NCBI RefSeq assembly: GCF_022012395.1
Contig: NZ_JAKLTQ010000032.1
Span: forward strand, 1-41,305
From: Arthrobacter hankyongi
GTDB taxonomy: Bacteria; Actinomycetota; Actinomycetes; Actinomycetales; Micrococcaceae
Direction of reading: 5' to 3'
DNA: 41,305 bases
A program made the translations under genes and the position numbers. The notes under the pieces were generated by a model, which had not been told where the DNA came from, did not search any database, and saw nothing but the letters and a program-made list of their open reading frames with translations. Below are positions 23,879-41,305 of this stretch, in pieces (the first letter of the stretch is position 1; every line of letters begins with the position of its first letter).

Positions 23879-25597
23879 TCACCGGCCGGGTAGTTGCAAC
23901 CGGTTCATCGAGCCGAAGAGTGATGGACTGAGTATCACCGAGCGCCCGTCCTGGATCTGTGAGGTGATTAGCGGCTGACCCACGGTCGGATCCGCTGTAC
24001 CGTCCGGGTAGCTGAGCGGGGACTGGCCGCCGTCGCCGAAGTAGTAGATGCCGTTCAACCCCCGGTGGATCTCCTCGCGCAGCACTTTGCACGTGCCCGC
24101 GGGCACGGTGCTGCCGTTGCGTGCCCAGCTCCAGGCCAGCAACTGGACCTGGTCGTAGGCGGCGCTGGCCTGGGCGGGTCCGGGCTCGACGCCGTAGCGC
24201 AGCAGGTAATTGCGCTGAAACCGGCTCGCCGAGGCCGAATCGGTGCGGGTGGTGACCGAGCTCCAGACTGCCCCGTCAGCCAAAGGCCCCAAGACGTCCT
24301 TGAACCTGGGGATCGAGGCTCCGTAGACGTAGTGCACCAGGCCGGTGAAATCGTGCTCCCTCAGCAGCCGGTGGAACAGCGCGATCTCATCCGGGATGAA
24401 GTGGGCAACCAGCACCACATCCGGCTGCGACTCCGAAATTTTCCGGGCAATTCGCCGCCAATCCGTCTGCCGGAACGGGGCCGACTGCGTGGATGAGACG
24501 CTCCAGCCTACGGTGGACAACGCTTCCTCAAATCCGTTCCCCGTAATGTGGGCGCTCGGAGAGTCCATTTCCACGACCGCTACCTGGCGGTTGGAGGGGG
24601 CATAGGTCCGGCTGGATTCCAACTCCTGCAGGAAACGCCGGAAGGCCATTGCATAGTATTTCTCCGATGGGCAGGTCTGGTAGATCATCCAATAGCGGTC
24701 GGGGTGGGAACGTACCAGTTCAACGTGCTGCTCGAAGGTATCCAGGTGCAGGAAGGGCCGGCCGTAGTCAGCTGCCATGTCCAGAATGAATGGATTTTCG
24801 GCGCTGATGTAGTTGGTCGTGATGGCATCTACGCCGGAATCGATCAGCCGCTGCATGGCTGCCCGGACATCGGTCGGGTTGAAAATGTCGGCATCGGCGA
24901 CAATGTGCTCGAGGGGACGGCCTGCGATGCCTCCGTTGGTACTGATTTCCTCGACGGCCAGGGCGGATCCGCGGACGTGTTCCTCGCCATCGTCGGTAGC
25001 ATTGCCGGACAGGGACGCCAGGGTTCCTAGCAGGATCGGACGGCGGATTGCAGGCAGGGCAGCCAAGGCCCGGACGCGTTCGGGGTTGCGGCTGAGCATC
25101 CGGGCGAATTTCTCCAGACCGACGGCGGCGATCGGGGCCACCCCATCGACACCGCCAGACACAGGCAACGCGAGCAGGTTGCTATCGACAGCCATGGCAG
25201 CCAGGCCGGCTCGGCCGCGCTGGTCCAGCTTCTGCAGCAACCGCTCGATCTGGGTGGACACTGTCCGGGGACTGGTTCCAAGCCGTTCGGCGATCTCGAT
25301 GTTGGTCAGGCCGACGGACACCAGGGTCAAAACGTCGATTTCCCGTTTCGTGATCCCCTGCGGCAGTGCCACTTGGCTGGCAGTAACCAGAGCGTGATCC
25401 TGTTGGTCGCCCCTGCCGCGGTGGCGCTCCATACGCACGGCAAGCCACATTCCATCCGCGCGATAAAGGAACCGTGCTTCGGGCCGGTTGACCAGCAGGA
25501 AACCCCGCGCGAACAGAACAAGTTCAGTAGTCGGTTCTTCACCCTTAAGGACAACCGTCTTCCCTTGGTGGTCCGCTGTGAACTCGGACTGGGACAT
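23879..25597 (-). CDS. LuxR-type HTH fused to a periplasmic-binding-protein (branched-chain amino acid/amide-binding) domain
   Basis: The 572-residue reading starts at ATG 25597 (M-S-Q-S-E-F), with ACAGG seven bases upstream; ATG 25627 is an alternative. Residues about 1-75 are an unassigned beta-rich region. Residues 81-137 are a LuxR/GerE helix-turn-helix (ITKREIDVLTLVSVGLTNIE, then RLGTSPRTVSTQIERLLQKL). From about 188 to 540 comes a type I periplasmic-binding fold of the LivJ/AmiC kind (PILLGTLASLSGN, AVEEISTNGGIAGRPLE, RLIDSGVDAITTNY). There is no signal peptide or membrane segment, so it appears to be a cytoplasmic one-component sensor that binds an amide or amino-acid-like ligand. It lies downstream of the amidohydrolase and separated by a hairpin. 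Confidence 0.85.
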   Translation of the reverse strand: MSQSEFTADHQGKTVVLKGEEPTTELVLFARGFLLVNRPEARFLYRADGMWLAVRMERHRGRGDQQDHALVTASQVALPQGITKREIDVLTLVSVGLTNIEIAERLGTSPRTVSTQIERLLQKLDQRGRAGLAAMAVDSNLLALPVSGGVDGVAPIAAVGLEKFARMLSRNPERVRALAALPAIRRPILLGTLASLSGNATDDGEEHVRGSALAVEEISTNGGIAGRPLEHIVADADIFNPTDVRAAMQRLIDSGVDAITTNYISAENPFILDMAADYGRPFLHLDTFEQHVELVRSHPDRYWMIYQTCPSEKYYAMAFRRFLQELESSRTYAPSNRQVAVVEMDSPSAHITGNGFEEALSTVGWSVSSTQSAPFRQTDWRRIARKISESQPDVVLVAHFIPDEIALFHRLLREHDFTGLVHYVYGASIPRFKDVLGPLADGAVWSSVTTRTDSASASRFQRNYLLRYGVEPGPAQASAAYDQVQLLAWSWARNGSTVPAGTCKVLREEIHRGLNGIYYFGDGGQSPLSYPDGTADPTVGQPLITSQIQDGRSVILSPSLFGSMNRLQLPGR

Positions 25598-25678
25598 CGT
25601 ATGCCTGTTCCATTCGCCTAAAGTCATCCAGTCATTCTGCGTGAGTCCCGCCACTGCCAACAAGCTTGTGGCCGAACT

Positions 25679-25710
25679 CCGGCGGCCGCCGTAGGTGGGG
25701 CGGCCGCCGG
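25679..25710 (-). terminator. Terminator-like hairpin after the HDAC-like gene
   Basis: A perfect 12-bp inverted repeat (25679-25690 with 25699-25710, arms CCGGCGGCCGCC) with an 8-nt loop begins eight bases past the stop of the HDAC-like gene on the minus strand. It lacks a T-run. It separates the transporter operon from the regulator gene. Confidence 0.7.
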
Positions 25711-25718
25711 GATCAGGC

Positions 25719-26828
25719 TCAGGCGACGGGTACGGGCACTCTTCTGGCAAGAAGGGCTGCCTGCTGGATCGCTTCCTCCTGCCAAGGTTCGATAAATCGC
25801 TGCGGGTAGTTCTGGAAAAAGACAAGGTAGGGATCGTCCACGGCCGACTTCACGCCGGTCAGTTCCTCGAGCACGGCCATGCCACAGAACGGGACATAGT
25901 GCGCCGAGTAGCCGCCTTCGTGCGCGAATACCAGCCTACCGCCGCTCAACTCCGCGGCGGCCTGGATGACCAGACGCGACATACGGCGGAAGCCGTCACT
26001 GGTGACCATCATTCGTCCCAGCGGATCGGTCACGGCCGCGTCCATGCCGCTGCCGACGATGATCAGCTCCGGTTCGAACCGCTGCAGTGCAGGAATGACT
26101 ACGTGCTCTACGGCCCGCACATAGCCGCCGTCTCCAGTACCGGCCGGCAGCGGGACGTTGAGAACGCTGCCCTCGGCTCCCGGTCCACCGGTTTCCTCTC
26201 GGAATCCGGAGTCCACTGGATAGAGCCGGTCCTGGTGGAGCGAAACCGTCAGTACGTTGGGGTCTTCCCAAAAGATCTTCTGCGTTCCGTTGCCATGGTG
26301 CACGTCCCAGTCCACAATGGCGATCCGCTTGATCCCAAAATCTTCCTGCGCGATCCTTGCCGCGATGGAGGTGTTGGCCAGGATGCAGTATCCCCGACCC
26401 CGGTCCGGCTCCGCGTGGTGTCCCGCTGGTCGGACCAGTGCGTATGCATTGCTGACTTCGCCGGACAGGACCCCGCGCACCGCATTGGCGACGGCGCCAG
26501 CTGCCAGCCGGGCGATGCGCAGGCCCTGCGGTCCGAAATCCGCGTTTTCTCCAGCGTCCCCTCCGGTAGGGTCCAGTGCCTTGAGCCGCCGAAGGTAATC
26601 CGCCGTATGGACCCGGAGGATCTCCTCGTCGGTAACTTCGGTCGCGTCTAGGCGCTTCATCTGCTTGTCGAAGCCGCTGACTTCCACGAGCGCAGCAAAA
26701 CGCCCCTTGGTCGCCGGCGAATCAAAGGCTTCGTAGGGCTGGATAAATCCGCCGGGTGGGAAAAATCCGGATCCGTTTCCGGTGTTGTGCCAGTTGAAGG
26801 CTTCATGCCAAATCCAACCAGTGGTCAC
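25719..26828 (-). CDS. Class II histone-deacetylase-family amidohydrolase (acetylpolyamine amidohydrolase-like)
   Basis: A 369-residue zinc amidohydrolase starting at GTG 26828 behind a strong GAGGAG site. All catalytic features are present: the HH dyad in RPAGHHAEPD (H137, H138), the zinc ligands in VDWDVHHGNGTQ (D175, H177) and GSGMDA (D263), and the catalytic tyrosine in HEGGYS (Y307). Bacterial members release acetate from acetylpolyamines, acetoin-type or other short N-acyl amines. It is the last gene of the ABC importer operon (76 bp after the permease), so it probably deacylates the imported compound in the cytoplasm. Neighbouring PuuP- and PuuB-like genes support an amine product. The substrate is unproven. 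Confidence 0.93.
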   Translation of the reverse strand: MTTGWIWHEAFNWHNTGNGSGFFPPGGFIQPYEAFDSPATKGRFAALVEVSGFDKQMKRLDATEVTDEEILRVHTADYLRRLKALDPTGGDAGENADFGPQGLRIARLAAGAVANAVRGVLSGEVSNAYALVRPAGHHAEPDRGRGYCILANTSIAARIAQEDFGIKRIAIVDWDVHHGNGTQKIFWEDPNVLTVSLHQDRLYPVDSGFREETGGPGAEGSVLNVPLPAGTGDGGYVRAVEHVVIPALQRFEPELIIVGSGMDAAVTDPLGRMMVTSDGFRRMSRLVIQAAAELSGGRLVFAHEGGYSAHYVPFCGMAVLEELTGVKSAVDDPYLVFFQNYPQRFIEPWQEEAIQQAALLARRVPVPVA

Positions 26829-26904: not shown

Positions 26905-27954
26905 TCAGGACCGCAGCGCCAGCCCGGTGGGAGACTGAGTGTCCTCATCAGGGTGGGATCGTTCCGCCAAGGCCGCACGGCCTCGATTTTCCCAGGACTT
27001 CTTGACGATCTTCTGGATGGATTCGTCTAGGGCGACTGCGACGACCAGAGTTAGACCCACAATGATTGTCTGCAGGAACGGGGAGGCCTGCAGAAAGACC
27101 AGCCCGTTGCGCAGGACGCCGAAAAATAGCAGGCCGGCAACCACGCCACCGATACGACCGCTGCCGCCGGCAAAGGCGACGCCTCCCAGCAGAATCACGG
27201 TCAGCCCGCTCATTTCCAGGTTAAGGCCGATGGCAGGACTGACGGACTGGACCTTGGCGGCCAGCATGATGCCGGCCAGCGCGGATGAGACGCCGCAGGC
27301 CGCAAACAGTCCGAACCGGATCCTGGTCACCTTAATCCCCATGAGGTAGGCAGCGCGCTGGCTACCGCCTACCGCATAGACTTCCCGACCGATACGATGC
27401 CGGTTGAGCACGTACCACGCCAAGGCTATGGCGGCGATCAACATGGCCAGGCGCAGCGGCAGCGGCCCGATCGACGCCGTGCCGATCTCCCGGAATCCGT
27501 CCGGCAGTTCCGTCCTTGTCACGGTGCGCCCGTTGGTCATGAGCATCGCATACCCGCCCCAGACACTGAGAAAGCCCAGAGTCACCACAATGGGGTTGAG
27601 CCCCAGGTAGGCCACGAGGAACCCGTTGAGCATGCCTGCCAATGCGCCGAAAAGGAGCCCTGCGGCGAACCCCAGGACAATCGAACCTGTTGCGCTCATG
27701 GTCAGCGCCGCATTGACAGCCGCGGCAGAAGCAATGGAACCGACGGACAGGTCCACGGCACCGGAAATCAGCAGCAGTCCCAAAGGCAACGCGATGATCC
27801 CCAATTCTGCGACCTGCAGGAGGACGTTCATGGCATTTCCCGTGCTGAAGAATTTCGGGTTCAGCACAGAGAAGAAGGCAATAAGCAGGACGAGGGCCAT
27901 GAAGATCCCGTTGCGCGCCGCAAAGGTCTTGATTTCGCCGACGGAGAGTTTCAT
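26905..27954 (-). CDS. ABC transporter permease, RbsC/BPD_transp_2 type (second system)
   Basis: A 349-residue membrane protein with the family motifs FFSTGNAMNVLLQVAELGIIA, ISGAVDLSVGSIAS, YAVGGSQRAAYLMGIKVTRI and ILLGGVAFAGGSGRIGG. It abuts the ATPase gene by one base and probably forms a homodimer with it. The DLSVGS motif is the standard RbsC form, whereas the first system of the window has YDLSNGG there. It forms the importer with the ATPase at 27955-29475 and the lipoprotein at 29481-30464. The ligand is not a proven sugar, and the linked amidohydrolase suggests an N-acylated amine or amide. Confidence 0.93.
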   Translation of the reverse strand: MKLSVGEIKTFAARNGIFMALVLLIAFFSVLNPKFFSTGNAMNVLLQVAELGIIALPLGLLLISGAVDLSVGSIASAAAVNAALTMSATGSIVLGFAAGLLFGALAGMLNGFLVAYLGLNPIVVTLGFLSVWGGYAMLMTNGRTVTRTELPDGFREIGTASIGPLPLRLAMLIAAIALAWYVLNRHRIGREVYAVGGSQRAAYLMGIKVTRIRFGLFAACGVSSALAGIMLAAKVQSVSPAIGLNLEMSGLTVILLGGVAFAGGSGRIGGVVAGLLFFGVLRNGLVFLQASPFLQTIIVGLTLVVAVALDESIQKIVKKSWENRGRAALAERSHPDEDTQSPTGLALRS

Positions 27955-29475
27955 TTAAGCGACTTCTTCCTTGGAGGATTTCCGATCAGACAGCTCGAGA
28001 AGTGCGGACAACAGTTTGCCGCCAAACCCCGTTGTGCGGTCAACGGGGGCGATCCGGCCCCCATTCATCACATACGCCCGGTCGCACAGCAGGTCGATCT
28101 CATCGGATTCGGCCGAGGCCACCAGCACCGTTGCACCTTCCGCAGCCAGGGCACGGACGGCTTGGGCGATATCGGCTTTCGCTCCGACGTCGACACCCTG
28201 GGTCGGCTGGGCGAGGAGAAGGACGCGCGGAAGGCGGGGAAACATCCACCGGGAAATCAAATGCTTCTGCCTGTTGCCACCGCTGAATTCGTCAATGGGG
28301 GCGCTGCTCCCTGGTCCCAGAATGTTTAGTGCGGCCCGTGCACGGGCGTAGACCTGCCGGCCAGCCTTGGGCCCGATCCAGAATCCCCTGTGGTTCCCGT
28401 CGCGGTACCAGGGCAGGAAAACCGTGTCCAAAGCCGATGCTCCCGAGATCAGCCCGTCGTTTTCCCGGTCTGCAGGCACCAGATGGATCCCGTGACGGAT
28501 CGCCTGGGCTGGCGAGGCAACGGCAACCCGGCGACCGCCGAGCCTGAATCCGAACCTGCGATGAAGCCCAAAGATACTCTCGAGCAGTCTGAACTGCTCG
28601 CCGGCTGCCATCCCGAAGAGGCCAACCACTTCTCCTGCCCTGCAGGAGATGGCTGCGTCCGGTTGCTCGCACCCGATGGACTCCGGCCCAGCCGTGCGGG
28701 CGGCAGCAAACCCGTTGACCTTCGCGTCCGGTGCCAAGGCCTTGGCCAGGGTCTGTCCGTCGAATTGGCTGGCGGGGCCGTCGACCTCTAGGCGGCCGGA
28801 CCGCAGCACCAGGATTCGCTGACAGACATCGAGAATATCCGGAAGTCGGTGGGACACGTAGATGACAGTCACCCCCTCCGCTGCCAGGTTCCGGATCAGG
28901 CGATGCAGCGCTACGGTTTCGGTGCGGCCGAGTGCTGCGGTTGGCTCATCCAGCAGCAGAATCTTCATCTCACCGCGTAGCATCCCCCGGGCGAGATCCA
29001 CCAGTTGGCGTTCTCCGAGGGACAAAGTGCCTACGATCAGGTCCAGGTCGAGGGCGGCACCGACCCGGGCAAGCGCCCTGTGCGCGGCGCCGGTCCGGTC
29101 CTTGGGATACAGGTCGGACTGTCCAAGGAAGAGATTGTCGATGATGCTCAGGTTCGGTGCCAGGGCCGGTTCCTGGTGGATGACCGTAACCCCCAGCCTG
29201 GCCATGTCCATCGGGGTGGAACGGGCACCAACATGGATGCCGTCAATGAGGAAATCACCTGAGGAGGCGGGGAACACTCCGGAAACAACATTGAACAAGG
29301 TGGATTTTCCCGCCCCATTATGTCCAAGCAGCCCCACGATCTCGCCGGGTACGATCCTGGCACTTACTGACTCGAGCGCCCGGGTGGCCCCGAATTCCAC
29401 GGTCAGGGATCTTAGTTCCAGGCGGACCGCCTCCGGGGCCGCTGACGGACCGCCTGCTTTAGCCATATGCCCCAT
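27955..29475 (-). CDS. ABC transporter ATP-binding protein, RbsA type, with a degenerate second domain
   Basis: This 506-residue two-domain ATPase has an intact first half: Walker A GHNGAGKS (51-58), signature LSLGERQ, Walker B ILLLDEPTAAL. The second half is unusual. Where Walker A is expected it has GMAAGEQFRLL without a lysine, and its Walker B reads VLLLAQPTQGVD, with Ala-Gln in place of the usual Asp-Glu. Its signature FSGGNRQK is kept. So only one composite site is likely to hydrolyse ATP. The ATG at 29475 and an in-frame ATG at 29466 are both possible starts. It powers uptake through the permease at 26905-27954. Confidence 0.92.
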   Translation of the reverse strand: MGHMAKAGGPSAAPEAVRLELRSLTVEFGATRALESVSARIVPGEIVGLLGHNGAGKSTLFNVVSGVFPASSGDFLIDGIHVGARSTPMDMARLGVTVIHQEPALAPNLSIIDNLFLGQSDLYPKDRTGAAHRALARVGAALDLDLIVGTLSLGERQLVDLARGMLRGEMKILLLDEPTAALGRTETVALHRLIRNLAAEGVTVIYVSHRLPDILDVCQRILVLRSGRLEVDGPASQFDGQTLAKALAPDAKVNGFAAARTAGPESIGCEQPDAAISCRAGEVVGLFGMAAGEQFRLLESIFGLHRRFGFRLGGRRVAVASPAQAIRHGIHLVPADRENDGLISGASALDTVFLPWYRDGNHRGFWIGPKAGRQVYARARAALNILGPGSSAPIDEFSGGNRQKHLISRWMFPRLPRVLLLAQPTQGVDVGAKADIAQAVRALAAEGATVLVASAESDEIDLLCDRAYVMNGGRIAPVDRTTGFGGKLLSALLELSDRKSSKEEVA

Positions 29476-29480
29476 GGGAG

Positions 29481-30464
29481 TTACTTGACCTTTTGGGTGT
29501 AGAACTGGTCGGCGTTCTCGGGCGTCACGCGTGTCGAGGCGATGTTGATATTGCCCTTCAACGTTCCTTCAGCGGCGCCCAGCAGCAGCTCCACATTCTT
29601 TTCGGCCAGTTCCTTCGCCGGCAGGATGTAACCCAGCCGCCAGATACCCTTCGGTTCCTTGATCAGATCCAAGGATTCATTGGTGGCATCCAAGGCGCCA
29701 AGCAGGTAGTCCGGATCGTGAGGATCGACTCCGTGCTCTGTCAAGGCACGATAGGCGCCTACCATCTGCCCGTCGCCGGTGGAAAGCCATACCTTCGTAT
29801 CCGGATTCGCGCTGAGCTGATTACGCGCATTTTCCATGCCGTCCTCCACCGTGAGCGCTGGCATGTCGGCGATCTTGACGTTTGCCCCGGCATTTTTCAG
29901 GCCCTTCTTGATGCCTTCGGTCCGGTCTCGCCCAAGGTCGGTTTCGTAATAACTGAACAGCCCCACCGGAACTTCTGCCTTGCCAAACTTTCCGACGATC
30001 CATTTTCCGGCTTCCTCGCCAAGCCTGACACCGTCCTGGAAGTTATCGATGACCAACGCAGCCTTGATGCCGTCCCATTGGGTTGCATAGCCGACCACGG
30101 GAATGCTTGCTGCATTGGCCTGCTCCGTGACAGCAGCCATGGAATCGGACTGCACGGGATATCCCATTATCGCCTTCACGTCGCCCCGCTGGATCCATGA
30201 CTCCCAGCTGGACACCTGGTTCTGGATGTTCCACTGCGGATCATCGCTGAGCAGTTCATAGCCTGCCTTTTCAATGGCCGGCTTCATGTATGCCAGTTCG
30301 TCCACCCAGATCTGGATATCCAAACCGGCAAAACTCATCGCTACTGCGCCTTTGCCTTTGCTACCGGAATCTGTTCCTTCGGCGCCGGCTGATCCACAGC
30401 CGGACAACACTAAGGAAGCAGCAAGCCCCGCGGCAGCGAGGAAGGGGATCATGCGAGATTTCAT
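29481..30464 (-). CDS. Solute-binding lipoprotein, sugar/autoinducer-type periplasmic-binding fold
   Basis: A 327-residue lipoprotein with signal MKSRMIPFLAAAG, lipobox LSGC and lipidated C23. The mature part is a type I periplasmic-binding protein (Peripla_BP_4): VDELAYMKPAIEKAGYEL, then VKAIMGYPVQSDSMAAV, IPVVGYATQWDG and NPDTKVWLSTGDGQMVGAYRAL. The hinge and ligand residues are Trp-rich (WNIQNQVSSWESWIQRG), which may suit a hydrophobic or cationic amine ligand; that is inference. GGAG six bases before ATG supports the start. It is the first gene of the leftward importer/amidohydrolase operon under the palindromic control region 30465-30781. Confidence 0.93.
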   Translation of the reverse strand: MKSRMIPFLAAAGLAASLVLSGCGSAGAEGTDSGSKGKGAVAMSFAGLDIQIWVDELAYMKPAIEKAGYELLSDDPQWNIQNQVSSWESWIQRGDVKAIMGYPVQSDSMAAVTEQANAASIPVVGYATQWDGIKAALVIDNFQDGVRLGEEAGKWIVGKFGKAEVPVGLFSYYETDLGRDRTEGIKKGLKNAGANVKIADMPALTVEDGMENARNQLSANPDTKVWLSTGDGQMVGAYRALTEHGVDPHDPDYLLGALDATNESLDLIKEPKGIWRLGYILPAKELAEKNVELLLGAAEGTLKGNINIASTRVTPENADQFYTQKVK

Positions 30465-30781
30465 CTTTTCTCCTGAAGTGGGCAGTCCAACATCATTGGC
30501 GGACGTCTTCGCAGTACACGGAACGAAATTCCCGTTCGGCTAATTCGTTGACTGCTATGACACACTGCCACAGGAGTATGTGACATGCGTCAAATGACGT
30601 ACGTCATGTAACAATTCAGATCCGCCTGCCGTAAGGCGCCCCGGGGCGCCTTACGGCTTCAGCAATCATGACGAAACATACGTCAAATGACGCATGACGA
30701 ACTGCTGGAATGTTCCCAACAATGGGTCGACCACAGAAGTTCTGCCAACTCGCTGACCAGCCGCCGAAGCACAGGAGAGAA
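30465..30781. promoter_or_regulatory. Divergent control region with repeated operators and a 30-bp perfect palindrome
   Basis: The same 12-mer CGTCAAATGACG, itself an inverted repeat, occurs at 30588-30599 and 30681-30692 within longer matching blocks (ACATRCGTCAAATGACG). Further TGACG/CGTCA half-sites flank both. ATGACGTACGTCAT (30594-30607) is a perfect palindrome overlapping the left copy. Midway, 30628-30657 is a perfect 30-bp palindrome with half GCCGTAAGGCGCCCC, able to form a strong hairpin. It may insulate the two promoters as a bidirectional terminator or hold a looping protein. The region drives the importer operon leftward and the deacetylase/HyuAB operon rightward. Confidence 0.75.
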
Positions 30782-31570
30782 ATGTTCAATTGGCCCCCAG
30801 GTCACCGTTACGGGGCAACGGTGAGCTTTGACTTCGACGCCGAGGAAGTTTGGATCGGCGAAAACCCCGACAATGCGCACAGGCCCGGGGTCCTGTCGCA
30901 AGGTGCTTACGGCCCGAGGGCCGCTATCCCCCTGATCCTCGGGCTGCTCGAGCGGCACAGTGTCTGCGCGACCTTCTTTGTCTGCGGCCGCGACGCCGAG
31001 CGCCACCCCGAATCGATCCGGTCCATCTTGGCGGCGGGCCATGAAATCGCCCATCACGGTTATACGCACGTGTCCCCGACCGTCCTGTCCCTCGAAGACG
31101 AGGCTATCGAGCTCAAGCGCGGGCTTGAGGCACTGCAGGATCTGGGGGCAGAGGTGGCAGGTTACCGGTCGCCGTCGTGGGACTTCAGTGCAAACACTCT
31201 TGATTTGCTCGAATCCCACGGATTCGAGTACTCCTCCAACCTGCTGGATGATTTTGTCCCCTACCGGCATGCCGCGCACAATCTGGCCGAACTCCCGGTG
31301 TCATGGATCCTCGATGATGCACCGCACTTCTGGTTCGCCAATGACACGTGGGAAAAGACCATCCGGTCCCCGAGGGAGGTACTGGACGTCTGGCTGCCGG
31401 AAATTGACGGCATCGCTTCCCTCGGCGGCCACGTCATGCTCACCATGCACCCGATGATCATCGGGCGGCCTTCTCGCCTGGCCATGCTTGACCAGGTGCT
31501 CTCACACCTGATCTCAACCGGAGCCTGGATCCGGAGCGCCCGCGAAACAGCGCAGCTGGTGGGCAAATGA
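30782..31570 (+). CDS. Polysaccharide-deacetylase (NodB-fold) family hydrolase, possibly imidase/PuuE-HpPgdA group
   Basis: Start at ATG 30782 (M-F-N-W-P-P) behind AGGAG gives 262 residues with no signal peptide. The NodB metal site is intact: D17/D19 in VSFDFDAEE and the HH-G-Y-T-H motif (H91/H92, H96), with RSPSWDFS and a late histidine in VMLTMHP. The absence of an export signal and the FFVCGRDAERHPE pattern place it nearer the cytosolic HpPgdA/PuuE/imidase branch than cell-wall chitin deacetylases. In that branch members open cyclic imides or allantoin-like rings. It is first in the rightward operon and overlaps the next gene by 4 bp. The reaction is inferred only. Confidence 0.88.
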   Translation: MFNWPPGHRYGATVSFDFDAEEVWIGENPDNAHRPGVLSQGAYGPRAAIPLILGLLERHSVCATFFVCGRDAERHPESIRSILAAGHEIAHHGYTHVSPTVLSLEDEAIELKRGLEALQDLGAEVAGYRSPSWDFSANTLDLLESHGFEYSSNLLDDFVPYRHAAHNLAELPVSWILDDAPHFWFANDTWEKTIRSPREVLDVWLPEIDGIASLGGHVMLTMHPMIIGRPSRLAMLDQVLSHLISTGAWIRSARETAQLVGK

Positions 31571-32379
31571 GCCGCGCACAGGAACGGCCGGAGGGGACGG
31601 TCTCAGTAGACGGCCAGAAGAAGGTGGCCATTGTCACCGGAGCCGCACGGGGGCTGGGAAAATCCATTGCATTGGCCCTGCTCGAGGCCGGCTATCGGAT
31701 TGTTGCCAGCGATGTGGCACGCTCCCTGCCGGAGTCCCTGCGCGCCCCTGCCGGAACCGGACCGCTGGTCCATGCGGTGACGGATCTGGCCGATCCTGGA
31801 ACCGGCCATGAGCTGGTGGAACTGGCTTTGGCCACCTTCGGGCGCTGCGACGCCGTGGTGAACAATGCCGGCGTCGGTGGTCCCGGCGTGGAACTTTCCG
31901 CGACCACCGACGCACAGCTGGCCGCTGTCCTTGAGATAAATCTGCTGGGTGCCGCACGACTCTGTCGTGAAGCGATCCCGCACCTGCGCCGAAGCGGGCA
32001 GGGACGCATCATCAACATCGGTTCGCTCTTTGCCGATCATCCGGCACCCGATGGTGCGGCTTATTCCATGTCGAAAGCTGCCTTGGCCGCCCTGAGCCGG
32101 TGCATCGCCGTCGAAGAAGGCAGGCACGGCATCACGGCAAACACTGTTGCGCCCGGCTACATGCTGACTGAAATGCATGAGGAGGAGGCGGCCATGCAGG
32201 CGCAGCGGCAAGGTGTCCCCATCGAGGAATATATGGCGCAGCTGCGCTCCACGGTCCCCCTTCAGCGGCACGGCACCGGGTGCGACGTCGCCGGCGCCGT
32301 ACTGTGGCTGCTCTCGGACGGAGCGGCATATGTTTCCGGACAGACCATTCCGGTCAACGGCGGCCTGGTCTTGTCCTAG
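31567..32379 (+). CDS. Short-chain dehydrogenase/reductase (SDR)
   Basis: A 270-residue classical SDR. The cofactor loop is TGAARGLG (24-31), NNAG follows at about 99-102, and the catalytic set is S153, Y166 and K170 (IGSLFADHPA, AYSMSK). The SGQTIPVNGG C-terminus is typical. An extra 17-residue N-terminal extension precedes the fold, so a later start is possible, but the ATG overlaps the upstream stop by 4 bp, favouring coupling. The aspartate after the second strand (VASDVA) suggests NAD(H). It probably oxidises or reduces a hydroxyl or carbonyl intermediate of the amide pathway. Confidence 0.92.
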   Translation: MSRAQERPEGTVSVDGQKKVAIVTGAARGLGKSIALALLEAGYRIVASDVARSLPESLRAPAGTGPLVHAVTDLADPGTGHELVELALATFGRCDAVVNNAGVGGPGVELSATTDAQLAAVLEINLLGAARLCREAIPHLRRSGQGRIINIGSLFADHPAPDGAAYSMSKAALAALSRCIAVEEGRHGITANTVAPGYMLTEMHEEEAAMQAQRQGVPIEEYMAQLRSTVPLQRHGTGCDVAGAVLWLLSDGAAYVSGQTIPVNGGLVLS

Positions 32380-34306: not shown

Positions 34307-34338
34307 ACCGAGCCCATATTCATACGTCAGGAATACAC

Positions 34339-35685
34339 ATGTCTACTGCAATGAGCACGGCACAGGGAGCAGGACTGAAGAAAGTCCTCCGCCTGCCCTC
34401 GGCCGTCCTGTTCGGTCTGGCGTACATGATCCCGCTGACCGTGTTTACCACCTACGGCATCGTCAACCAGCTCACCGAAGGCCACATCATTTCCTCCTAC
34501 CTCGTCACCCTGGTGGCGATGCTGTTCACGGCGGCCAGCTACGCGAAGATGGTCCGGGCCTTCCCGCAGGCGGGCTCGGCGTATACCTACACGCGCAGGA
34601 CCCTCGGCGGCAATATCGGCTTCCTGAGCGGATGGACGCTGCTGCTGGATTATCTGCTCATGCCGATGATCACCTACCTGGTGATCGGCATCTACATGAG
34701 CGCCAGCTTCCCAGCCATCCCCCAGCCGGCCTGGATTGTCCTGTCCCTGGTACTGGTGACGGTCCTGAACATCCTCGGCATCAAATTCGTCTCCAAGACC
34801 AGCAGCATCCTGCTGGGCGTGCAGGCCGTCTTCCTGGTGGTGTTCGCCGTAATGGCGCTGCGCGCCGCCTCCGGAAATCCGATGCCCTCCATCGTCGACA
34901 TGATGTTCGGCCAAGGTCCCGGCACGGCGGTGATCTTTGCCGGTTCCGCCATCCTGTGCCTGTCCTTCCTGGGCTTCGATGCGGTCTCCGCGCTGGCCGA
35001 GGAGACCGTCGAGGCCCGCCGTGTCATCCCGAAGGCCATCATCCTGGTCACCCTCGCCGGCGGACTGCTCTTCGTGGTCATATCGCTGATCGCCAACCTG
35101 GCCTTCCCCGACTGGACCGCCTACTCCAGCGTGGATTCGGCCGCCCTGGACGTCATGACCGTCTCCGGGGGCAGCTTCCTGGAGGCCTTCTTCACCGCCG
35201 CGTACATTGCCGGATGTTTCGGCGCCGTACTGGCCTCGCAGACCACGGTGTCGCGCATCCTCTACTCGATGGGGCGCGACGGCGTCCTGCCCCACCGGGT
35301 CTTCGGCTACCTGCATCCGCGGTTCCACACGCCCGTCTACGCCACGCTGATTGTCGGCGCGATCGGCCTGGTGGCCCTGGTCATCGACCTGACACTGGCC
35401 TCCTCGCTGATCAGCTTCGGTGCCCTGGCCGCCTTCACCGTGGTCAACATCGCCGTCATCAAGCACTACTTCATCGATGAGCGTCTCCGCTCTGGATCCG
35501 GCGCCGTCCGCTACCTGGCCGCGCCGCTGGTCGGCGTCGGACTGTGTGTCTGGCTCTGGACCAGCCTCTCCGGCACGGCTTTCACCGTGGGCTTCTCCTG
35601 GCTGATCATCGGCGCCGCCTATCTGGCCGTCATGACCCGAGGCTTCCGCAAGGCACCGCCCGCGCTGGACCTGGCCGAAGCCTAG
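34339..35685 (+). CDS. APC-superfamily permease, putrescine importer PuuP-like
   Basis: A 448-residue, 12-helix transporter. From memory it follows E. coli PuuP closely: LRLPSAVLFGLAYMIPLTVF, then FTAASYAKMVRAFPQAGSAY, ILCLSFLGFDAVSALAEET, and SRILYSMGRDGVLPHRVFGY. It should take up putrescine or a related amine by proton symport. AGGAATACAC precedes the ATG, with 32 bp after the SDR gene and 82 bp before HyuA. Its presence beside an ABC importer of the same module suggests either two forms of substrate or uptake of the free amine after extracellular release. Confidence 0.92.
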   Translation: MSTAMSTAQGAGLKKVLRLPSAVLFGLAYMIPLTVFTTYGIVNQLTEGHIISSYLVTLVAMLFTAASYAKMVRAFPQAGSAYTYTRRTLGGNIGFLSGWTLLLDYLLMPMITYLVIGIYMSASFPAIPQPAWIVLSLVLVTVLNILGIKFVSKTSSILLGVQAVFLVVFAVMALRAASGNPMPSIVDMMFGQGPGTAVIFAGSAILCLSFLGFDAVSALAEETVEARRVIPKAIILVTLAGGLLFVVISLIANLAFPDWTAYSSVDSAALDVMTVSGGSFLEAFFTAAYIAGCFGAVLASQTTVSRILYSMGRDGVLPHRVFGYLHPRFHTPVYATLIVGAIGLVALVIDLTLASSLISFGALAAFTVVNIAVIKHYFIDERLRSGSGAVRYLAAPLVGVGLCVWLWTSLSGTAFTVGFSWLIIGAAYLAVMTRGFRKAPPALDLAEA

Positions 35686-35767: not shown

Positions 35768-37822
35768 ATGTCTGCCCACCCGTCCTGGACCGTCAGTATT
35801 GATGCCGGCGGAACGTTCACCGACGCAATCGCCCGTTCCTCCGGCGGCGCGTCCCTCGTCGCCAAGGTCGCCTCCACTCCGGAAGACCCGTCCCGAGGCC
35901 TGACCAACGCCGTGGCCGAACTGGCGGCTCAGGGCATGGACCTCGGCGAGGTGGCCCTCATCTGCCACGGCACCACGGTCGCCACCAATGCCACACTCAC
36001 CGGCAACCTGGCCAGGGTCGCCCTGATCACCACCAAGGGCTTCCGCGATGTGCTCGCCTACCGCCAGGGCAGCCGTCCGGACGTCTACAGCCTCTCCCCC
36101 GAACGCCCCCGCGAGCTGGTGGACCGCTGCGCCCGCTTCGAAGTCGACGAGCGGATCGGCAGCGACGGGACGGTCCTGACCCCGCTGCGGAACGACGATA
36201 TAGCCGCCATGGTTGACGCCGTCGCCGCGGTGGCACCCGAGGCCATCGCCGTCAGCCTGCTCTTCAGCTACCTCAATGCTTCCCATGAGGAAAAACTCCT
36301 GGCCGCCCTGGAGGCGCGCTTCCCGGACACTCCGATCAGCATCTCCAGCCGTATCGCCCGCGAGTTCCGCGAATACCCGCGCACGGCGACCACCGTGATC
36401 AACGCCGCCCTGCGCCCGGTCGTGGCAGCCTACCTGCAACGGGCCGCCGGGGCACTGGCCGACAGCGGTGTCGCGGCCCCGTTCCAGGTGATGCAGTCCA
36501 ACGGCGGCTGTGTACCGGCCGAACGGGCCGGCAGCCAGGCACACCGGCTGATCCTCTCCGGGCCGGCCGGCGGCGTCAGCGGACTGGTCCGCGCCGCCGA
36601 ACAACATGGGCTTGCCAATGTGATCAGCCTCGACATGGGCGGCACGAGCGTCGATGTGTGCCTGGTCCGTGATTCCCAGGCACCGTACACCAGCATCCAG
36701 GAAGTCCAGGACCATGTCCTGATCGCACCCACCGTGGACATCCACACCATCGGCGCCGGCGGAGGCAGCATTGCCTGGGTGGACCGCACCCAGCGGCTGC
36801 GCGTCGGCCCGCAGTCCGCCAAGGCCGTCCCCGGCCCGGCCAGCTACGGCCGCGGCGGCACCGAGGCCACGCTGACCGACGCCCACGTGGTCCTGGGCAC
36901 GCTGGGCACCGAGGCCCTCGCCGGGGACCTGCGGCTGGACAAGGCCGCTGCCGAAACGGCAGTCAAGGAAATCGGCAGCCAGCTGGACATGGACGTGCCC
37001 GAGGCAGCAGAGGCCATCCTGGCAATCGCCCTGGCCCACATGGTCCGCGCGGTCCGCAAGGTCAGCGTGGAGCGTGGACTGGACCCGCGCAATTTCTCCC
37101 TCTTCCCCTTCGGCGGCGCCGGACCGCTGCATGCCGGTATGCTGCTGCGCCACCTGAGCCTGGCCAGCGTCGTGGTGCCGCTGCAGCCGGGGCTCTTCTC
37201 TGCGGACGGCCTGCTGGCTGCCGGCCTGCGTGTCGATGATGCCCAGACGGTGCTCAAGCCCTTCGGCCCCGCGGCGCTGCCGCCGATCGCAGACTGGCTG
37301 ACCGAGCGCCGGCGGGCCCTGACCGCCCAGGTCATCGAGGACGGGGCGTCGGCGGACACCGTGGAAGTCCTGGTGACGGTGGATGCCCGCTACCTGGGAC
37401 AGGGCTATGAACTCACCGTCAACCTGGACGGCACGGACGTGAACAGCCTCGGGCAGATCGCCGACCGATTCCATCCTGCCCACGCTGAGCTCTACGGCCA
37501 CAGCTCGCCGCAGGAAACCGTGGAAATTGTCACCGTGCGCATCGCCGTCACCGGCCAGTTCGACCGCGTGCCCAGCACCCCGATCCCCCGCGGATCCGAA
37601 CAACCCGCCCCGGACGCCGTCATTGGCTCCAGGCTGGTCCGCCTGCCCGGCAGCGGCGAGACGCAAACCGCCATCTTGGACCGGGCCCGGCTTAGGGCCG
37701 GCAACATCATTGCCGGCCCCGCCATCATCACCCAGATGGACGCCACGACCGTCATGCTCACCGGACAGACCGGCAGAGTGGCCGACAACGGAGACATCAT
37801 CATCACGGAGGACAAGAATTAG
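35768..37822 (+). CDS. hyuA: HyuA: hydantoinase/5-oxoprolinase family subunit A
   Basis: A 684-residue protein with the ASKHA-type ATP-binding start WTVSIDAGGTFTDAIA. It also carries HGTTVATNATLTGNLARVAL, RPRELVDR, the second phosphate motif SLDMGGTSVDVC and FGGAGPLHAG. HyuA-type subunits phosphorylate the amide carbonyl with ATP so that the ring can be opened; known complexes hydrolyse 5-oxoproline, N-methylhydantoin and lactams, or carboxylate ketones. GAAGGA lies just upstream of the ATG, and the HyuB gene follows after 2 bp. The substrate cannot be read from the sequence; the amine context favours a lactam or hydantoin. Confidence 0.94.
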   Translation: MSAHPSWTVSIDAGGTFTDAIARSSGGASLVAKVASTPEDPSRGLTNAVAELAAQGMDLGEVALICHGTTVATNATLTGNLARVALITTKGFRDVLAYRQGSRPDVYSLSPERPRELVDRCARFEVDERIGSDGTVLTPLRNDDIAAMVDAVAAVAPEAIAVSLLFSYLNASHEEKLLAALEARFPDTPISISSRIAREFREYPRTATTVINAALRPVVAAYLQRAAGALADSGVAAPFQVMQSNGGCVPAERAGSQAHRLILSGPAGGVSGLVRAAEQHGLANVISLDMGGTSVDVCLVRDSQAPYTSIQEVQDHVLIAPTVDIHTIGAGGGSIAWVDRTQRLRVGPQSAKAVPGPASYGRGGTEATLTDAHVVLGTLGTEALAGDLRLDKAAAETAVKEIGSQLDMDVPEAAEAILAIALAHMVRAVRKVSVERGLDPRNFSLFPFGGAGPLHAGMLLRHLSLASVVVPLQPGLFSADGLLAAGLRVDDAQTVLKPFGPAALPPIADWLTERRRALTAQVIEDGASADTVEVLVTVDARYLGQGYELTVNLDGTDVNSLGQIADRFHPAHAELYGHSSPQETVEIVTVRIAVTGQFDRVPSTPIPRGSEQPAPDAVIGSRLVRLPGSGETQTAILDRARLRAGNIIAGPAIITQMDATTVMLTGQTGRVADNGDIIITEDKN

Positions 37823-37824
37823 CC

Positions 37825-39483
37825 ATGACACCAATCGAACAGCAGACCACAGTGGACACGGTGACCTTCGAGGTGGTGTCCTCGGCGCTGCACTCCATTG
37901 CCGAGGAAATGGGCGTGATCCTCAAGCGCTCCAGTTACAGCCCGATCATCCGCGACATGGATGACTTCTCCTGCGCCCTGTTCACCCCGGAGGGGGACCT
38001 CGTGGCGCAGGCGGACTATATCCCGGCCCAGCTCGGTGCCATGTCCCTGGTGGTTAAGGCCATTATCGAGCGCTGGGAGGATCGGATCACTGACGGCGAC
38101 GCGTTCATCTGCAACCACCCCTTCCTCGGTGCCATGCACCTGCCCGATGTCAACGTAGTCACGCCGATTTTCGTCGGCGGCAGGCTCGAAGGCTGGAGCG
38201 GCACGGCGGCGCACCATATCGACGTCGGCGGGGTGAACCCCGGAAGCGAAGGCCCGGAACTGGAGGACATCTTTGCCGAGGGCCTCATCCTGCCACCGGT
38301 CCGGCTCTCGATAGCCGGCGTGGAGAACCCCGATGTAATCTCCATCATCACCGACAACATCCGCGATCCGCTGAGCACGGTCAGCGATCTGCGGGCCCAG
38401 CGCGCGGCCTGTGTGCTCGGCTACCAGCGGCTGAATGAACTTGCGCAGCAGTACGGCATGGACGTGGTCTCCGCCGTCATGGTCCGCTCCCTCGACGTCG
38501 TCGAAAAGGCCGTGCGCAACTCGCTGCGGGACCTGCCGGACGGCACCGGCCAGGCCGAGGGGTTCCTGGACGACGACGGGATCGACGGCCCGCCCACCCG
38601 GATCCATGCCAAGGTCAGCAAGCGCGGCGATACCCTGACCATCGATCTGACGGGTTCCAGTGCCCAGGTACGCGGTGCCATGAATGTGCCCTGGGCCAGC
38701 GCCCGCGCCGGCATCGTCTACGCGGTGCGCGCCGTGGTGGCCCCGGACCTGGGCGCCAACGACGGGTTGCTGCGCGCGGTGGAGATCATCGCCCCCAAGG
38801 GCAGCGTGCTAAATCCCCAGGCACCGGCCGCAGTGTCCATCCGCCACAACACCTGCCAGCGCTTCGCTGACACCCTCATCCGCGCGCTGACCGATCTGTG
38901 GCCTGCGGAAGCGGTCGGCAGCAGCACTGTCAGCTTCTTCTGCATGAACGTCGGCAGCACCTCCCCGGTTACCGGCCGCCCGGCGGTCATGGCCGACGTC
39001 GTCGGCGGCGGCACCGGAGCCACCCGGTTCGGCGACGGCGTCGACGGAGTGGACACCTACATGTCCAACGTCGGGGTCATGCCCGCGGAAGTCGTGGAAA
39101 CCAACTACCGGATCCGCATTCTCAGGAACGAATTCGTGCCCGGTTCCCAGGGCACCGGCAAGTTCAACGGCGGCATGGGCCTGCGCCGGGAATACGAGAT
39201 CCTCGAGCACGCCCAGCGGGCCACCTTCTACGCGGAGCAAACCAACGGCAGCTTTGCCCCGCAGGGCGCTGCCGGCGGCACGGCAGCCCAGCCGACCCGG
39301 ATCACTGTCATTGCCCCGGACGGCACCGAATCGGTGGTCGGCACCAAGACCTCGACCACGCTGCAGCCCGGCACGATTGTCCGTGTGGAGACTGCCGGCG
39401 GCGGCGGGTTCGGGCCGGCAGCCGAGCGCCCGGCCGAGCTGGCCGCAGCGGATGCCCGCGACGGAAGGCTGGTGCAGGCATGA
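37825..39483 (+). CDS. hyuB: HyuB: hydantoinase/5-oxoprolinase family subunit B
   Basis: This 552-residue protein has the HyuB signs: SALHSIAEEMGVILKRSSYS, then IRDMDDFSCALF, ICNHPFLGAMHLPDVNVV, GGVNPGS and TCQRFADTLIRAL. The C-terminus has FVPGSQGTGKFNGGMGLRRE and VETAGGGGFGPA. The histidines and aspartates in the N-terminal third form the metal site in characterised relatives. It works as a complex with HyuA, performing the hydrolytic step on the activated amide. It overlaps the oxidase gene by 4 bp (ATGA). Length is normal for stand-alone HyuB. Confidence 0.94.
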   Translation: MTPIEQQTTVDTVTFEVVSSALHSIAEEMGVILKRSSYSPIIRDMDDFSCALFTPEGDLVAQADYIPAQLGAMSLVVKAIIERWEDRITDGDAFICNHPFLGAMHLPDVNVVTPIFVGGRLEGWSGTAAHHIDVGGVNPGSEGPELEDIFAEGLILPPVRLSIAGVENPDVISIITDNIRDPLSTVSDLRAQRAACVLGYQRLNELAQQYGMDVVSAVMVRSLDVVEKAVRNSLRDLPDGTGQAEGFLDDDGIDGPPTRIHAKVSKRGDTLTIDLTGSSAQVRGAMNVPWASARAGIVYAVRAVVAPDLGANDGLLRAVEIIAPKGSVLNPQAPAAVSIRHNTCQRFADTLIRALTDLWPAEAVGSSTVSFFCMNVGSTSPVTGRPAVMADVVGGGTGATRFGDGVDGVDTYMSNVGVMPAEVVETNYRIRILRNEFVPGSQGTGKFNGGMGLRREYEILEHAQRATFYAEQTNGSFAPQGAAGGTAAQPTRITVIAPDGTESVVGTKTSTTLQPGTIVRVETAGGGGFGPAAERPAELAAADARDGRLVQA

Positions 39484-40889
39484 CCGCCATTGCCACCGGC
39501 CGCCGGGTGGAGCAGTCCCTGGCCCATGCGAAGTATTCCTCCGTCTGGTTCGAGGGCATGCCCGAGGCTTCCGGGGAAAAACTGGCCGGGCAGCACAGCT
39601 GCGACCTGCTGGTGGTCGGCACCGGCTTCGGCGGACTGTGGGCCGCCATGCGCGCGAGGAAACGACACCCGGACTGGGCCATCACGGTGATGGATTCGCA
39701 CGCCGTCGGCCACGCTGCGTCCGGTCGCAACGGCGGGTTTGTCTCCTACAGCATTACCCACGGACTGGCGAACGCGTTGGCCCGTTGGCCGGAGGAAGCC
39801 GGCGTGCTGGAACGGCTCGGGCTGGACAACCTCCGCGGCTTCAAGGCCGAACTCGACGAGGCCGGGATCGACGGAGGCTTGAGCACCGCCGGCAAGCTCC
39901 AAGCGGCCCTCAAGCCGCACGAGCTGGCGGAACTGGAGGCCACGGTGGAACCCGCCCGCCGCTTCGGCCGGCCGCTCCAGCTGCTCTCCGCGGAGCAAAC
40001 CCGGGCACGGATCAACTCGCCGGCCTTCATCGGCGGCGTCTTCGACCCGGCCGGCACTTACCTCGTGGAGCCCTACCGGCTGGTGTGCGGCATGCGGGAA
40101 TACCTGGAACGCCAGGGCGTGGTGTTCTTCGAACACACCCCGGCCCAGTCCCTGAGGGACGCCGGCGGCCGAATGGAAGTGAAAACCCCCTATGGCGCCG
40201 TCACCACCGGCCGTGTCATCCTGGCTACCAGCGCCTTCCCCCCGCTGCTGCGGCGCAACCGGCTCGCCGCGGTCCCGGTCTATGACTATGCCCTGGCCAC
40301 CGAGCCTCTGACCGCTAAGCAGTTCGAGACTGTTGGCTGGGCGGGGCGTGAGGGGTTGACGGACACAGCCAATCAGTTCCACTATTCACGCATCACCGCC
40401 GACGGACGGATCCTGTGGGGCGGCTACGACGCGGTCTACCACTACGGCAGCCGGATCTCCCCGGAACTGGAACGACGCCCGGAAACCTTCCGGCTGCTCG
40501 CCGAACAGTTCTTCCAGACCTTCCCGCAGCTCGACGTGGACTTCAGCCACGCCTGGGGCGGGGTGATCGACACGTCCACCCGGTTCTCCGCGGCCTACGG
40601 CACCGCCTTCGGTAAAAAGGTCGCCTACGCCCTCGGCCATACCGGACTCGGCGTCGGGGCCAGCCGCTTCGCTGCGGACACCATGCTGGATTTGCTGGGC
40701 GGAGAGCGCACGGAACGGACCACGCTGCAAATGGTGCGGCGTCCTGCCGTTCCCTTCCCACCCGAACCGATCCGCGCCGCGGGCATCAATCTCACCCGGC
40801 ACGAGCTGGCCCGAGCGGACCGCAACGCAGGCAGGCGGGGCCTGTGGCTGAAGACCCTGGATGCACTCGGACTGGGATTTGACTCCTGA
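39480..40889 (+). CDS. FAD-dependent amine oxidase, PuuB-like (DAO superfamily)
   Basis: A 469-residue flavoprotein. The dinucleotide motif is LLVVGTGFGGLWAA (GxGxxG at 47-52) and the flavin segment AASGRNGGFVSY near 79-90. The C-terminal half has FHYSRITADGRILWGGYDAV, FPQLDVDFSHAWGGVIDTS and GHTGLGVGASRFAA. These match the gamma-glutamylputrescine oxidase (PuuB)/DadA-like group, which oxidises amines to aldehydes with H2O2 formation. The start is ATG 39480, within a 4-bp overlap with HyuB. It would oxidise the amino acid or amine freed by HyuAB to an aldehyde or oxo acid. No PuuA ligase is seen, so the classic glutamylated route is not supported within the window. Confidence 0.92.
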   Translation: MTAIATGRRVEQSLAHAKYSSVWFEGMPEASGEKLAGQHSCDLLVVGTGFGGLWAAMRARKRHPDWAITVMDSHAVGHAASGRNGGFVSYSITHGLANALARWPEEAGVLERLGLDNLRGFKAELDEAGIDGGLSTAGKLQAALKPHELAELEATVEPARRFGRPLQLLSAEQTRARINSPAFIGGVFDPAGTYLVEPYRLVCGMREYLERQGVVFFEHTPAQSLRDAGGRMEVKTPYGAVTTGRVILATSAFPPLLRRNRLAAVPVYDYALATEPLTAKQFETVGWAGREGLTDTANQFHYSRITADGRILWGGYDAVYHYGSRISPELERRPETFRLLAEQFFQTFPQLDVDFSHAWGGVIDTSTRFSAAYGTAFGKKVAYALGHTGLGVGASRFAADTMLDLLGGERTERTTLQMVRRPAVPFPPEPIRAAGINLTRHELARADRNAGRRGLWLKTLDALGLGFDS

Positions 40890-41257
40890 TGGACAGCACA
40901 CTGATTCCCGGCCGGCCGGTAAATATCAACGACCTGACGTTGGAGCACCGACCCGTGCCCGCGGACCAGGTGGCCGCGGGCACACCGACCACAGGCCTGA
41001 ACAGTCTGGGCCGGTTCGGCGGCCTAGGCCTAGGCGTCTGGGAGATGTCCGCCGGCGGGATGCACGACATCGAAGCCGAGGAACTGTTCCTGGTGGTCTC
41101 CGGAAACGCCACCGTGGTGATCCATCACGACGCACCCGGCGGCGCTGCATCCCGCATCATCGAGCTGGCCGCCGGCAGCCTGATGCACCTAACCGCCGGA
41201 ATGCGCACCACCTGGACGGTGCACGAACCGTTGCGCAAGGTCCATCTGGCACCGTGA
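40889..41257 (+). CDS. Small cupin (cupin_3/DUF861-like)
   Basis: A 122-residue cupin sharing the TGATG junction with the oxidase gene. The core is GMHDIEAEELFLVVSGNATVV, then LAAGSLMHLTAGMRTTWTVHEPLRKVHL, which resembles the DUF861/cupin_3 group found beside amine oxidases and aminotransferases. It is a different branch from the paired cupins at 102-512 and 7481-7894. The canonical two-His motif is reduced to H-D-I-E-A-E-E, so metal binding is uncertain. It may be a small isomerase or a helper of the oxidase. Confidence 0.87.
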   Translation: MDSTLIPGRPVNINDLTLEHRPVPADQVAAGTPTTGLNSLGRFGGLGLGVWEMSAGGMHDIEAEELFLVVSGNATVVIHHDAPGGAASRIIELAAGSLMHLTAGMRTTWTVHEPLRKVHLAP

Positions 41258-41293
41258 CCGGACCCGCTGATCCCCTTCCCCCTTGCAGAAAGT

Positions 41294-41305
41294 AGGAACA
41301 CAGAT
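41294..41305 (+). promoter_or_regulatory. Ribosome site and cut-off start of the next gene
   Basis: AGGA (41294-41297) is followed six bases later by AT at the last two positions of the window. The next base is expected to be G, giving the ATG of a further gene of the same operon. Only 46 bases separate it from the cupin stop, so cotranscription is likely. Confidence 0.55.

Follow-up and report, generated by a model that had tools for sequence, protein, structure and literature searches.

A block of genes encoding four mutually unrelated hydrolase folds (HDAC, NodB/CE4, C45/AAT and HyuA/HyuB, as judged from Pfam and NCBIfam) occupies the right-hand part of contig NZ_JAKLTQ010000032.1 of Arthrobacter hankyongi (assembly GCF_022012395.1); the window analysed here is this whole contig, 41305 bases in length. 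Together with an ABC importer, an APC permease, two short-chain dehydrogenases/reductases (SDRs), a DAO-family oxidase, a cupin and a regulator, the hydrolase genes form two sets which diverge from a control region at 30465-30781 containing two copies of a putative operator (Table 1). As the contig stops at 41305, the locus lacks its right end. The gene set is genuine and its arrangement more than chance, since the block is syntenic in a second genome of the genus, G008, and its core recurs in other loci.

A first-pass annotation of this DNA had named the four hydrolases, two SDRs, a PuuP-like permease and a divergent layout around one control region, and all of these were recovered in their assigned places: the hydrolases by Pfam and NCBIfam, the SDRs and the permease by family matches, and the control region with its two operator copies. 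The regulator, the operator and the cupin had not been named. The ABC importer (26905-30464), previously called polyamine-type, proved to be ribose-type by family, combining Peripla_BP_4 and BPD_transp_2 in Pfam; the PuuB-like oxidase is indeed a DAO-family enzyme, but is only 28% identical to PuuB.

Table 1. Genes and putative operator sites of the amide-hydrolase locus, in window coordinates
Feature	Position	Strand	Basis
Regulator: small alpha/beta N-terminus, LuxR/GerE helix-turn-helix, Liv-type binding-protein sensor	about 23879-25627	-	Pfam
Class II HDAC-type zinc amidohydrolase	25719-26828	-	Pfam 4e-80, 270 bits; PDB sequence search
ABC permease, BPD_transp_2	26905-27954	-	Family match
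ABC ATPase	27955-29475	-	Family match
Substrate-binding protein, Peripla_BP_4, ribose type	29481-30464	-	Pfam, NCBIfam
Operator site 1, CATGCGTCAAATGACGTACG	30584-30603	strandless	Alignment and pattern scan; putative
Operator site 2, CATACGTCAAATGACGCATG	30677-30696	strandless	Alignment and pattern scan; putative
NodB-fold (CE4), probable metal-dependent amide/imide hydrolase	30782-31570	+	Pfam 5e-18
SDR 1	31567-32379	+	Family match
C45 Ntn-hydrolase/acyltransferase	32431-33582	+	Pfam AAT; NCBIfam C45 271 bits, cut-off 85
SDR 2, start approximate, reading frame overlapping C45	33536-34306	+	Family match
APC permease	34339-35685	+	Family match; 41% identity to E. coli PuuP
HyuA, ATP-dependent lactamase/hydantoinase alpha subunit	35768-37822	+	Family match; caprolactamase alpha model 472 bits, cut-off 1000
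HyuB, beta subunit	37825-39483	+	Pfam 1e-160, 536 bits
DAO-family FAD amine/amino-acid oxidase	39480-40889	+	Family match
Cupin, EutQ-like	40889-41257	+	Family match

Three of the hydrolases are intact in their motifs, which are PAGHHA, DWDVHHG, GMDA and EGGY in the HDAC, SFDFD, HHGYTH and RSP in NodB, and ECSSF in C45 (invariant in a three-member alignment), and the oxidase carries GxGxxG; we take all of these to have catalytic roles. The D, HxxxH, RxP and H motifs of NodB, presumably comprising the metal ligands and the catalytic His, are invariant across 14 aligned sequences, in keeping with the metal-ligand pattern of CE4, and C45 combines an NCBIfam score above the cut-off with the conserved cysteine. 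The NodB and C45 open reading frames (ORFs) span 30710-31570 and 32401-33582, with likely starts at 30782 and 32431, respectively. HyuB has five matches in the genome; over the stretches that were aligned, identity between the copy in the locus and the other four is 28-34%. Against PDB sequences, the HDAC scores 352 bits with histone deacetylase-like amidohydrolase (HDAH) and 324-336 bits with dimethoate and propanil hydrolases, as opposed to 114 bits with acetylpolyamine amidohydrolase (APAH) and 149 bits with HDAC10, which places it nearer HDAH by score rather than by a tree.

Synteny and recurrence of the gene set

In G008, the order from the regulator to the oxidase is kept at 77-92% identity, and the block is followed by genes for an aldehyde dehydrogenase (ALDH) and a class III aminotransferase. 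The latter is 80% identical to the aminotransferase at 556-1938 of the window, and the former 47% identical to the window ALDH at 2087-3532, with both ALDHs exceeding the cut-off of the aminobutyraldehyde dehydrogenase subfamily. At the left end of the window (556-7411), this class III aminotransferase and the aminobutyraldehyde-type ALDH are joined by another ABC importer of the ribose type. As a relative of the window aminotransferase is situated just beyond the G008 amide block, gene order suggests that the two contig ends may belong to one pathway. A circular contig, joining the left-end AT3 to the right-end cupin, was also considered, and no exact terminal overlap of 20-399 bases was found.

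To describe recurrence beyond the genus, we used the best 80 of 261 C45 relatives in named genome records, scoring gene presence by fixed criteria; many of these loci are on short contigs, so that co-occurrence counts are lower bounds. Most recurrences of the core, which consists of NodB, C45 and the SDR pair and often includes HyuAB and the regulator, are in Actinomycetota. NodB is found together with C45 in 13 of the 14 loci with C45 identity of at least 46%, in 11 of 35 at 40-46%, and in 3 of 31 below 40%. NodB with both SDRs is present in 14/80 loci, HyuAB in 11/80 and the regulator in 14/80; SDR1 is present in all 14 regulator-bearing loci and NodB in 13, missing only from L065, a 5.8-kb contig. 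The combination of HDAC with a ribose-type importer was seen in three of the 80 (L031, L037 and L091), in addition to the window and G008. Pairwise distances of NodB, C45, the SDRs, HyuB and the regulator are correlated (rho 0.39-0.87), the observed value being reached by at most 2 of 500 permutations in a test which was run without two duplicate loci and does not distinguish co-transfer from common descent. The expectation that these genes travel together was upheld, for a core of the set, by the G008 synteny and by the recurrence of NodB, C45 and the SDRs. A strict HyuB search of the order (E <= 1e-150, 396 genomes) returned the window only, yielding no co-occurrence statistic. In a C45-anchored plasmid region of Streptomyces cadmiisoli, SDR, VOC, NodB and C45 genes are adjacent, and two other C45-anchored plasmid regions have no NodB annotated.

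Several additional genes were seen in these neighborhoods. Repeatedly, NodB or C45 has a gene of the VOC/glyoxalase type for a neighbor, as in L032, L034, L039, G070 and L139 (by Pfam in L032 only and by eye in L139), and one is annotated in L110. A luciferase-like monooxygenase gene is present in 11/80 loci (Pfam-named in L045 only), directly following C45 in the mapped loci L041, L043, L045, L050, L066 and L086; pyridine-type ring cleavage by such an enzyme was considered for the window and rejected, as there is no such Pfam match among the 40 of its ORFs that were scanned. In two Acidimicrobiaceae bins, L089 and L084, the companions of C45 are of another kind, comprising DJ-1/PfpI, phosphotriesterase-family and amidohydrolase genes as well as one for a binding protein of the NMT1 type (Pfam was run on L089 only).

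When NodB was used as a query (E <= 1e-55, 396 genomes of the order), 10 matches were obtained besides the window, with an SDR match in 6 of these loci (at least two SDRs in 4), agmatinase in 3 and AS amidase in 2. We also opened 14 NodB-anchored plasmid regions, hand-picked among 30 listed of 516 records. An annotated SDR is found near NodB in 10 of them (not in L112, L123, L124 or L125), which by itself is weak evidence, SDR genes being common. Another amide or amidine hydrolase adjoins NodB or is a few genes off in 10/14: AS amidase in L111, L117 and L122, ArgE in L114 and L118, agmatinase in L116, L119, L123 and L125, and creatininase plus isoaspartyl peptidase in L126. L112, L113, L115 and L124 have no close second hydrolase, with a penicillin-acylase gene some 6 kb away in L113. 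The NodB-SDR core is, then, often paired with interchangeable hydrolases. Related NodB-SDR genes also occur in proteobacteria, and haloarchaeal NodB relatives, 40-42% identical, have SDR genes beside them.

The agmatinase neighbors, found in 4 of the 14 opened plasmid regions and 3 of the 10 NodB loci of the order, bear on an alternative that we regard as unlikely, namely catabolism of acylpolyamines or guanidino-amines: HDAC, NodB and C45 would deacylate imported amides of putrescine- or agmatine-like amines, releasing an amine to be oxidised by the DAO enzyme, the aminobutyraldehyde-type ALDH and the aminotransferase, with HyuAB acting on a lactam by-product. The kinship of the permease to PuuP, the scores of the window and G008 ALDHs against the aminobutyraldehyde dehydrogenase model, and a spermidine/putrescine-annotated binding protein in the S. 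cadmiisoli NodB-C45 locus agree with such a scheme, which is opposed by the affinity of the HDAC to HDAH and the propanil and dimethoate hydrolases rather than APAH, by the ribose-type importer, by the low identity of the oxidase to PuuB together with the lack of any match to PuuA or PuuD in the 28 proteins of the window that were compared, and by the fact that no obvious role is left for HyuAB and the SDR pair. The polyamine flavor of the first-pass annotation is weakened by the same HDAC scores and importer family and by the distribution of the oxidase, while keeping some support from the permease and the agmatinase neighbors.

The regulator and its putative palindromic operator

The regulator combines matches to GerE (4.6e-13) and Peripla_BP_6 (5.9e-28). 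Its ORF is open from 25825, but the G008 match begins near 25666, and the start is approximate. In its predicted structure (mean pLDDT 86.5), Liv-type binding proteins were the best matches, headed by PDB 3h5l from Silicibacter with an E-value of 1.8e-31, versus 1.1e-19 for the next protein; by sequence, 3h5l matches at 168 bits. Residues about 13-86 are predicted to form a small alpha/beta domain (beta-beta-alpha-beta-beta-beta) with no Pfam match, which is possibly PAS-like judging from the model. Since 3h5l is likewise the best match (212 bits) for the Liv binding protein in module locus L060, sequence similarity suggests that sensor and importer recognise related ligands. A relative of the regulator on Agrobacterium tumefaciens plasmid pAt14-818c_b (32% identity over 94% of the query) is accompanied by NodB, a C-N hydrolase, cupin, oxidase, HyuB, HyuA and succinic semialdehyde dehydrogenase genes. 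On pPAN2 of Paracoccus pantotrophus (L167), another relative is matched in three segments, each of them annotated as a small gene of its own; they adjoin hydantoinase genes and a 4-hydroxyproline betaine epimerase gene.

Alignment of the control regions of the window, G008, L031 and L091 revealed conserved palindromes with the core CGTCA-NN-TGACG, of which the window has two copies, both between the divergent operons. The pattern used to scan the window was found 0 times in 100 shuffles, a zero expectation that is after the fact, as this pattern was derived from the window's own two sites. The palindrome accompanies the regulator gene: the core is present in 11 of the 14 regulator-bearing C45 loci versus 0 of the remaining 66, or in 9/12 once the two loci that first revealed the motif, L031 and L091, are left out. 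L030, L032 and L034, with regulator-like proteins under the identity criterion, are without it. In the window genome there is no further exact copy, the next best site being on another contig with one mismatch. When 396 Actinomycetota genomes were scanned with the strict pattern CATSCGTCA-NN-TGACGSATG, four sites were obtained, all of them beside module genes and distributed over three genomes; the pattern was written after L043 and L086, and two of the three genomes contain those loci, which makes G551 the sole independent one, with one site upstream of HyuA and another between the regulator and a Liv binding protein. The presence of a common operator before both operons suggests that the gene set is regulated as one unit.

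The control region gave no match in a sigma-70 scan. The interval separating the operator copies contains, at 30629-30656, a perfect 28-bp palindrome, CCGTAAGGCGCC-CCGG-GGCGCCTTACGG, which was not seen in the aligned G008 region and is possibly a bidirectional terminator or insulator.

An operator-like site with two mismatches is located between a regulator and a nitrilase-NodB pair on plasmid pYJND-2, of conjugative type, in Paenarthrobacter YJN-D, a strain reported to degrade iprodione (PMC9869045); any link of the plasmid locus to iprodione is hypothetical. Such a setting, along with the proximity of the HDAC to HDAH and the propanil and dimethoate hydrolases, could be expected if the locus were a recently assembled, mobile set that detoxifies or degrades a xenobiotic amide, such as an anilide, a lactam solvent or a fungicide. 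We consider this improbable, given that both the recurrence of the core in environmental Actinomycetota bins and the haloarchaeal NodB relatives with their SDR genes point to an old natural substrate.

Further to the left, the window contains a second catabolic-looking stretch (14466-22860), with genes for a cupin, an HsaA/ACAD-like flavin monooxygenase, a carboxylesterase, PaaX, a flavin-reductase domain, an NCS1 cytosine/purine/allantoin-type permease and a GntR regulator; the operator pattern scan of the window placed no site in it. The NCS1 family includes hydantoin permeases, and the presence of this gene (20672-21988) near the locus is one reason to consider catabolism of a cyclic peptide-like compound or ureide (hydantoin, diketopiperazine or allantoin-like), in which NodB would act as a PuuE allantoinase and HyuAB as a hydantoinase, with C45 and HDAC removing carbamoyl or acyl groups. 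NodB does match the PuuE structure and, at 6e-18 but with a score well short of the cut-off, the PuuE model, and the relatives of HyuB include N-methylhydantoinase structures. PuuE, however, is not known to have the metal-ligand motif which the NodB proteins retain; there is no carbamoylase-family Pfam match among the 40 window ORFs scanned, and the NCS1 gene has no match in the G008 region, making this scheme quite unlikely.

Proposed function and comparison with described pathways

In our reading, the locus comprises two hydrolytic arms that share a single amine-oxidising exit and one sensor. We give an even chance to its being an inducible regulon whose products import a small amide, cyclic or N-acylated, and hydrolyse it step by step, the 2-pyrrolidone or imide type being the likeliest. 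The LuxR-HTH/Liv-type sensor would bind the substrate or an intermediate and act at the two palindromic operators, and the compound would enter through the ribose-type ABC importer and/or the APC permease. In the lactam arm, ATP-dependent ring opening by HyuAB would yield an omega-amino acid, whose amine would be converted to an aldehyde by the DAO oxidase with its cupin, to be taken up by the aldehyde dehydrogenase or aminotransferase that neighbor the block in G008. The other half, with NodB, the SDRs and C45, may act as an arm for imides or amides, in view of the recurrence of NodB-SDR-hydrolase sets and of a published imide intermediate: the SDRs would oxidise a hydroxyl, e.g. hydroxylactam to imide, NodB would open the imide or strip an acyl group, C45 would cut the remaining amide, and HDAC would remove the acyl cap from imported amides.

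Several observations weigh against this assignment. In the C45-anchored loci, the DAO oxidase was found in 0/80 at the criteria used, and the APC permease and HDAC in only 3/80 each, which leaves the window, G008 and a few plasmids as the basis of the lactam arm. A close C45 (81%) was present only in G008 among nine genomes of the genus, which makes the set accessory, and the G008 block has no cupin match. Four of the 10 NodB-anchored loci of the order had no match to the other module queries, and the occurrence of NodB relatives beside agmatinase, creatininase and ArgE implies that the clade serves more than one substrate. The operator core is absent from regulator loci L060, L078 and L080 (3/14), and a search allowing up to 4 mismatches found no site in A. 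tumefaciens locus L166. Finally, Gulosibacter HyuAB is reported not to degrade caprolactam despite its homology (PMC9477822), so HyuAB homology does not fix the substrate.

In broader terms, and with slightly less than even confidence, we suggest that the locus represents an undescribed operator-defined regulon for a widespread natural cyclic amide, built of a NodB-SDR core, interchangeable hydrolases (C45, AS amidase, ArgE, agmatinase, creatininase or nitrilase-family) and a new family of LuxR-HTH regulators with a cytoplasmic Liv-type sensor. The locus supplies a short list of enzymes to test, along with a predicted operator, for a group of catabolic genes in actinobacteria. Identification of the substrate would give a function to genes annotated as “polysaccharide deacetylase”, “C45 peptidase” or “hydantoinase” without a pathway, and could provide a source of lactam- or imide-degrading enzymes and of a ligand-responsive regulator.

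In a limited search of the open-licence literature, covering titles and abstract openings of the papers listed, we did not find the gene combination, the operator or the LuxR-type sensor with a binding-protein domain. Part of the set does resemble a described lactam pathway, and the first-pass interpretation, incomplete in this respect and in lacking the regulator and operator, is as a whole partly supported. An Arthrobacter kpi cluster for 4-hydroxypyridine was set aside, its genes, in the part of the account covered, being different. In the E. coli Puu pathway, counterparts are limited to the PuuP-like permease, the distant PuuB-like oxidase and, outside the block, the ALDH at 2087-3532 (36% identical to PuuC), with no PuuA or PuuD blastp match at E <= 1e-3 in those 28 proteins of the window, which ends at 41305. 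The HDAC resembles the HDAH, propanil and dimethoate hydrolases both in score and in keeping the motifs that we take to be catalytic, and differs from that group in having a ribose-type importer as its neighbor.

The caprolactamase cluster of Pseudomonas jessenii is described as comprising the ATP-dependent HyuAB-type CapAB, an omega-aminotransferase and an aldehyde dehydrogenase (PMC6061476). The HyuA of the locus matches the capA model at 472 bits and HyuB the capB model at 247 bits, both far below the NCBIfam cut-offs of 1000; unlike the locus, the cluster has no NodB, C45 or HDAC in the part of that account considered here. Alike in described gene roles are also the nmpABCDEF genes of Alicycliphilus BQ1 and Paracoccus ZQW-1, with a HyuAB-type amidohydrolase, an amino-acid oxidase and an ALDH (PMC12866759, PMC6987047). 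There, N-methylpyrrolidone is proposed to be oxidised to 1-methyl-2,5-pyrrolidinedione, an imide intermediate, NmpAB and NmpC account for hydrolysis and deamination to succinic semialdehyde, and NmpF yields succinate; degradation is lost in an nmpB mutant (PMC12866759), and the same gene roles are given in PMC6987047. The parts of these accounts drawn upon mention no NodB, SDR, C45, HDAC or regulator of the present type, unlike the locus.

The HyuAB-oxidase-cupin-permease half resembles this described lactam catabolism, and analogy to the nmp and caprolactamase systems lends support to the proposed lactam arm. As in an nmp-type operon, HyuA, HyuB and the FAD oxidase (35768-40889) adjoin on one strand; an NmpF-type dehydrogenase could lie beyond the end of the contig, where G008 continues with its aminobutyraldehyde-type ALDH. 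Lactam opening followed by amine oxidation and aldehyde oxidation is a sequence described for nmpAB, nmpC and nmpF (PMC12866759), in support of the first-pass interpretation. Gene combinations elsewhere support it as well: a plasmid of Pseudomonas MPC6 brings together HyuA, HyuB, an APC permease, ALDH, oxidase and cupin, as does the right half of the window, and in Shinella HZN7 a class II HDAC is followed by ALDH, oxidase and cupin. In Variovorax SRS16, a HyuA-HyuB-oxidase set is situated about 7 kb from an amidase-SDR-SDR-NodB set.

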